Assembly (NCBI GenBank): GCA_903899845.1
Contig: CAIUKV010000185.1
Coordinates: 1-43,545, forward strand
Length of the DNA: 43,545 nt
Origin: an uncultured Actinomycetes bacterium
GTDB taxonomy: Bacteria; Actinomycetota; Acidimicrobiia; IMCC26256; PALSA-555
Reading direction: 5' to 3'
This document shows positions 19,302 through 43,545 of this stretch, piece by piece. The translations under genes and the position numbers were made by a program. The stretch's first letter is position 1. Each line of letters opens with the position of its first letter. The notes beneath the pieces are model-generated. The model was not told the origin of the DNA. It was given only the letters and a program-made list of their open reading frames with translations, and searched no databases.

Positions 19302-19302
19302 G

Positions 19303-19410
19303 GCGCCGGGTCCGGTGCGGCCGGGGTGGGCGCCGGGTCCGGTGCGGCCGGGGTGGGCGCCGGGTCCGGTGCGGCCGGGGTGGGCGCCGGGTCAGGTGAG
19401 GCCGGGGTAG
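19303..19410. repeat. 27-bp tandem repeat (four copies) seeded on the SDR 3' end
   Basis: Three identical 27-bp copies (19303-19383) and a fourth diverged one (19384-19410). The fourth contains the last codons and TGA stop of the SDR gene (stop at 19392-19394); in the other three the TGA is GGA. In the next gene's frame the array would read APDPAPTPA repeats, but that extension is not supported as protein. Confidence 0.85.
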
Positions 19411-20135
19411 GCACCGCCGTCGACCAGGAGGGCCGTGCCGGTGACGAAGCGGGCCGCGTCGGAGCAGAGGAACGCGGCCACCCGCCCGAAGTCCTCGGGT
19501 CGGCCGAGCTCCCCCACCGGGATCCCGGCGGCGACCGGGGCGAGATCGCCGCCGTACAGCGCGCGCAGCCGGTCCGTGGCGTGGAGGCCGGGCTGGAGCG
19601 TGTTGACGGTCACGCCGTGGGGCGCGACCACGGTGGCCAGGGTCTTGGCGAACCCGGTGACGCCGGCCCGGGAGGTGGCCGAGAGGATGAGGCCGGGCGA
19701 CGACTGGCGCGCCGCGATCGACGTGATCGCGAGCACGCGGCCCCAGCCCCGCTCGCACATCCCGGGCACGGCGGCCTGGCACATGGCGATGGTGGAGGCG
19801 GCGTTGAGGGTGAACGCGTCGGTGTAGGCCTGCACGTCGGGGAAGTCGGCGAAGCCGCCCCCGGGCGGCCCCCCGGCGTTGGCCACCACGATGTCGAGCG
19901 GGCCGACGGCCTCGGTCGCGGCCGCCACGAACGCGGTCGCGCCGGCCGGGGTCCCCACGTCGGCGACGAGGCCCACGAGGCCGGTGCCCTCGACCGCAGC
20001 GCGGACCCGCGCCGGGTCCCGCCCGCAGATCACGACCTCCACGCCCTCGGCCGCGAGCGCCCGGGCCACCCCCAGGCCGAGTCCGGCGCTGGCGGCCGCG
20101 ACCGCGGCCCGCCGACCCCCGATGCCGAGGTCCAC
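19392..20135 (-). CDS. Short-chain dehydrogenase/reductase with atypical catalytic motif
   Basis: 247 residues from the GTG at 20135, 2 nt after the preceding stop. The Rossmann start is degenerate (AVAAASAGLGLGVARALAAE, where TGxxxGxG is usual), followed by CGRD, ADVGTP and VANAGGPPGG. LAITSIAARQS is the catalytic-serine strand. The YxxxK motif is replaced: the region reads LILSATSRAGVTGFAKTLA, as in a divergent FabG-like subgroup where LSxxxRxxVxGxxKTLA stands in. The C-terminus has VNTLQPGL and LLVDGGAYPG. The substrate is unknown. It may form an operon with the secreted protein upstream. Confidence 0.82.
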   Translation of the reverse strand: MDLGIGGRRAAVAAASAGLGLGVARALAAEGVEVVICGRDPARVRAAVEGTGLVGLVADVGTPAGATAFVAAATEAVGPLDIVVANAGGPPGGGFADFPDVQAYTDAFTLNAASTIAMCQAAVPGMCERGWGRVLAITSIAARQSSPGLILSATSRAGVTGFAKTLATVVAPHGVTVNTLQPGLHATDRLRALYGGDLAPVAAGIPVGELGRPEDFGRVAAFLCSDAARFVTGTALLVDGGAYPGLT

Positions 20136-41298: not shown

Positions 41299-43388
<2,090 letters not shown>

Positions 43389-43404
43389 GCCGCCGCCGTC
43401 CTCC

Positions 43405-43524
43405 TCGTCGGCGGCAGGCGCTCAGTCGTCGTCGGCGGCAGGCGCTCAGTCGTCGTCGGCGGCAGGCGCTCAGTCGTCGTCGGCGGCAGGCGCTCAGTCG
43501 TCGTCGGCGGCAGGCGCTCAGTCG
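43405..43524. repeat. 24-bp tandem repeat, five perfect copies
   Basis: Five identical 24-bp units fill the space between trpS and a gene entering from the right on the minus strand. Because 24 is a multiple of 3, each unit reads in that gene's frame as APAADDD-stop or its permutation, so the array carries five in-frame TGA stops. A sixth partial unit continues into the coding end. It is a candidate length-variable locus. Confidence 0.95.
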
Positions 43525-43545
43525 TCGTCGGCGTCGCGGAGGGCG
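43518..43545 (-). CDS. 3' end of an unidentified gene (truncated by window edge)
   Basis: The minus-strand frame from the right edge reads ALRDADDD and then TGA (43518-43520). With only eight full codons I cannot identify the protein. Support comes from the array, which looks like a duplication of this gene's 3' end including its stop. Confidence 0.35.

Follow-up and report, generated by a model that had tools for sequence, protein, structure and literature searches.

A 24-bp tandem array that multiplies a gene end with its stop codon, probably a passive minisatellite, next to trpS in an uncultured Actinomycetes bacterium

Gene context and structure of the array

The window analysed in this study, a stretch of 43,545 bp, is an entire contig (C185) of the draft genome G000, which totals 2.89 Mb in 284 contigs. 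The host lineage is known solely from metagenome assembly. At its right end, the window holds a tandem array in a convergent spacer, with trpS on the left and an HD-domain-like gene on the right. The trpS gene, encoding tryptophanyl-tRNA synthetase (Pfam PF00579, E 1.7e-75), lies on the plus strand at 42396..43388, and trpS matches were found in 38 of the 41 genomes searched, own genome counted.

The HD-domain-like gene is represented in the window by its last 8 codons and stop (ALRDADDD-stop, 43518..43545, minus strand), because the contig stops at 43545. Its assignment is by synteny. In relatives, the gene facing trpS encodes a protein of ~176 residues with a weak match to the HD domain PF01966, at 21 bits just below the curated cut-off of 22 bits. 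This gene is present in 27 of the 29 relative genomes with readable sequence downstream of trpS, and in 22 of those 27 it lies within 131 bp of trpS. A preceding reading of the sequence without database searches (hereafter the sequence-only reading) had asked for the right-hand gene to be identified, and a gene on another strand or in another frame would have spoken against it. This mismatch was absent: the convergent orthologue is on the minus strand and ends ADDD-stop in most relatives, with AADDD-stop as the commonest form. Across many families of the order the acidic end is retained, as AADDD or something close to it, in a protein that otherwise diverges. We found no full HD-domain-like gene in the draft genome's own contigs; contig C231 begins with the gene after it, an M50 peptidase. 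Hence, the HD-domain-like gene falls in an inter-contig gap. By comparison with relatives, the missing piece between C185 and C231 would be ~0.6 kb long.

The array itself occupies 43405..43533 and consists of 5.4 copies of the 24-bp unit TCGTCGGCGGCAGGCGCTCAGTCG (TRF score 258, the highest among the arrays of the window). In line with the sequence-only reading, which had described perfect 24-bp repeats at the contig end, TRF returned a period of 24 with 100% match, and the five full units are identical letter for letter. The array is 129 bp long and is followed by 12 further bases before the contig ends. On the minus strand the unit reads GCC GCC GAC GAC GAC TGA GCG CCT. The HD-domain-like gene family usually ends with the first six of these codons, AADDD-stop, as found in the relatives G002, G003 and G006, and the remainder of the unit consists of six spacer bases. 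What has been multiplied is thus a gene end, its stop and a little spacer, and the orthologue ends in congeners bear out the earlier proposal of a copied gene end that includes the stop codon.

Translation of the minus strand from the contig end gives ALRDADDD-stop, four times APAADDD-stop, and then APAADEEDGGG. The stop scan placed TGA stops at 43518, 43494, 43470, 43446 and 43422, all in one common frame. Both results agree with the sequence-only reading, in which the gene ended ALRDADDD-stop and the repeats read APAADDD-stop in the same frame. Its count of one stop for each of five repeats holds for the five stops in frame, but one of these is the gene's own; the gene's last codons, ADDD-stop, themselves belong to the 24-bp array. 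This leaves four extra stops, one per 24 bp (43422..43496, minus strand; complement at 43494, 43470, 43446 and 43422). We also considered a coding repeat in other frames (SSSAAGAQ on the plus strand, PTTTERLP on the minus strand). Open frames are present there, and the candidate was rejected since synteny indicates no gene at this position.

An exact 15-base core of the unit was found at the array locus and once in contig C206, where it lies at the end of another gene. A 19-base core compared with 84,980 species genomes matched 30 stretches, never more than once per stretch. Two of these stretches were inspected, L055 and L070 (G001 contig), of which L070 alone was recognised as the trpS/HD locus.

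The same spacer in related genomes

The congener G001, whose trpS is 95% identical, has the unit twice, in a 25-bp form, in the same trpS/HD spacer. There is no difference between the two copies, but one indel and one substitution separate them from the unit of the window. Copies that are alike within G001 yet unlike the unit of the window are what would be expected of homogenisation within each genome. The trpS/HD spacers of the congeners G002 and G003 contained no array. Copy number among the congeners is therefore 5.4 in the window, 2 in G001 and none in G002 and G003, a comparison of species rather than of strains. In several relatives the spacer measures just -4 to 13 bp. Taken together, the spacer sequences have the appearance of a short duplication that was expanded and homogenised within one lineage.

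In G003 the trpS/HD spacer is occupied by a strong palindrome (G003:C183:15234-15277; ~2512-2555 of L007). Its 17-base half-site occurs 26 times per strand in G003 and zero times in G000, G001 and G002. This palindrome is a lineage-specific REP-like element.

Origin of the array

The array is very probably a passive, VNTR-like minisatellite of the slippage type. It would have begun as a tandem duplication, in the convergent spacer, of a short segment with the last codons of the HD-domain-like gene, its stop and some bases of the spacer. The copies would then have become more numerous and been homogenised through replication slippage or unequal exchange, and such copy-number change may be ongoing. 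The extra copies would be untranslated and nearly neutral, because each of them lies downstream of a functional stop. The sequence-only reading had left the choice between a passive minisatellite, a safeguard against read-through and a transcription-end element. The passive minisatellite fits best, and the safeguard is disfavoured by the comparison with relatives. The array is real and ordinary, and indicates no new mechanism. It offers a clear example of how a gene end can give rise to a minisatellite, and it illustrates that a pattern as striking as serial in-frame stops may be due to a period that is by chance divisible by three.

It is extremely unlikely that the serial stops were selected as a safeguard against ribosomes that read through the first TGA of the HD-domain-like gene, even though the five stops share one frame at intervals of 8 codons. 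The stops recur in frame because the stop sits within a unit with a length divisible by three, and one chance period in three would yield the same pattern. In the closest relative with copies, G001, the period is 25 and the extra stop is therefore out of frame, so that the next in-frame stop past the gene's own comes 64 codons on. Out-of-frame copies also occur in another stop-copying array of the draft genome G000, which has a period of 23 bp and 3.1 copies (G000:C38:3406-3476); its first unit holds the stop of a plus-strand gene, and the later units fall outside that frame. Extra copies are absent altogether from G002, G003 and more distant relatives; in the two of these that were measured, G006 and G003, the following in-frame stop lies 93 and 361 codons away. 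A selected safeguard should have extra stops that are both in frame and conserved, but they are in frame in the window only. Since they are out of frame in G001 and in the C38 array, serial in-frame stops are not conserved; they are a one-in-three by-product of the period.

A role in ending transcription is somewhat less far-fetched, but also unlikely as the explanation of the array. According to this alternative, trpS transcription stops at a hairpin whose 3' arm is the adjacent repeat unit, and additional copies lengthen the structured RNA, which terminates transcription or protects the 3' end. Indeed, a hairpin with the outermost repeat unit as its 3' arm is predicted on the plus strand at 43384..43426. 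The fold of 43383-43430 that contains it reaches -25.1 kcal/mol (z -3.2 versus shuffles), and the array on the trpS strand reaches -87.0 kcal/mol, where shuffles average -67.2 (z -5.6). A GC-rich stem is also predicted in the spacer of G001, though the whole segment has a z of only -1.3, and the strong palindrome in the G003 spacer likewise points in this direction. However, there is no T-run in 43389-43545, and a scan of terminator patterns gave no match. On the strand of the HD-domain-like gene the array folds no better than shuffles (z +1.05), and the very short spacers of several relatives leave no room for such an element. Moreover, the fold of the array depends on identical units that pair with one another with the help of G-U pairs. 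A terminator role for the trpS hairpin is possible but appears superfluous to the explanation. By its overlap with the well-folding 3' end of trpS, the array may have some part in RNA 3' ends.

The array might also be a population-variable switch at a convergent gene pair, in which a fast-changing copy number tunes the ends of the trpS and HD transcripts and the in-frame stops limit read-through. We consider this highly improbable. If copy number does vary in natural populations, strains of this uncultivated lineage could be told apart by the locus.

Contig end and copy number

There is little chance that the assembler generated the number of copies or joined them to the 12 bases on the right. 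Such an artefact might be suspected because the array is located at the end of a contig, because contigs of this assembly overlap by 141 bp, and because 129 bp is near the k-mer sizes typically used; the collapse of a longer array is conceivable as well. Yet G001, a separate metagenome-assembled genome, has two units almost like that of the window in the same spacer, and the gene end runs on as expected in the 12 bases that follow the array. These two observations imply a real array, even though its true copy number may differ from 5.4.

The contig end itself can probably be traced to the assembly. Exact overlaps of 141 bp occur in three contig pairs of the draft assembly, which points to assembly by a de Bruijn graph with k = 141. 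The terminal 141-mer of the contig (43405..43545), equal in length to these overlaps, starts at the first base of the array. In graph simulations, a genome with 5.4 copies alone produced no break at the array. Mixtures of full-length arrays of 5.4 copies with arrays of 6.4 or 7.4 copies were rejected, as their simulated contig end was at 43533 rather than at the observed 43545. The sole case that matched the observed end exactly was 5.4 copies combined with edges from the right side of a longer array. The array probably broke the contig, which makes the true copy number uncertain. Longer arrays are likely present in the sample, judged from assembly behaviour rather than from reads, and as an argument for polymorphism the contig break would be suggestive only.

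The array in the window shares its position near a contig end with others. Five of the nine long arrays in the examined contigs lie at most 160 bases from a contig end (binomial P ~1e-6). Such clustering is expected of any short-read assembly, and is by itself no proof of polymorphism.

Comparison with known repeat systems

Bacterial minisatellites are head-to-tail repeats of high identity with units of ~10-100 bp, and the array in the window, with 5.4 copies of 24 bp at 100% identity, has this structure. Like bacterial VNTR loci, it consists of short perfect direct repeats in an intergenic spacer with clean flanking genes, and its copy number differs among related genomes, across species here rather than across strains. 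It differs from them in that its unit carries the last codons of a gene together with the stop. A literature search at the level of titles and abstracts yielded no matching description of tandem repeats carrying stop codons.

The MIRU-VNTR loci, for example in the rnc-fpg1 spacer, are likewise intergenic tandem repeats of actinobacteria. MIRUs, however, are described as units of 40-100 bp scattered over 41 sites (PMC2734929), whereas the unit in the window measures 24 bp and was found at one site. Hence, the array is not a MIRU. In M. tuberculosis, the length of the tandem repeat upstream of fpg1 was reported to correlate with fpg1 expression (PMC2734929), and bacterial VNTRs as a class may therefore affect expression. 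The repeat in the rnc-fpg1 spacer precedes the affected gene, in contrast to the array in the window, which lies between two gene ends.

With intrinsic (Rho-independent) terminators the locus shares a GC-rich hairpin, here a predicted fold, directly after trpS in a convergent spacer, but the T-run is lacking and several relatives have no comparable space. REP-like palindromes are represented in this very spacer by the dispersed palindrome of G003, but the repeat in the window is neither dispersed nor built from a palindromic unit.

Other arrays in the draft genome

We examined ~0.7 Mb of the draft genome, with contigs under 3 kb read as N. This part contains 35 near-perfect arrays with a period of at least 15, whose units are unrelated; about 20 of the 35 are intergenic according to a rough codon-usage gene finder, on which the intergenic status of these other arrays rests. 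The periods of the other near-perfect intergenic arrays range from 15 to 24 bp. The 24-bp array in the window is the top scorer, yet it is not unique in kind, and G000 has a minisatellite tendency throughout its genome. For instance, a perfect 23-bp array of 4.9 copies with a hairpin-like unit, GGGGGCCTGAGCCCC, is located near the end of a minus-strand gene, at a contig end (G000:C93:1-113). Near-perfect intergenic arrays with unrelated units of 17-23 bp were found at G000:C6:18254-18352, C53:4995-5073 and C91:2968-3102. The window itself contains a further array at 19302-19416, with 4.3 copies of a 27-bp unit at 95% match, which overlaps one end of a predicted minus-strand gene.
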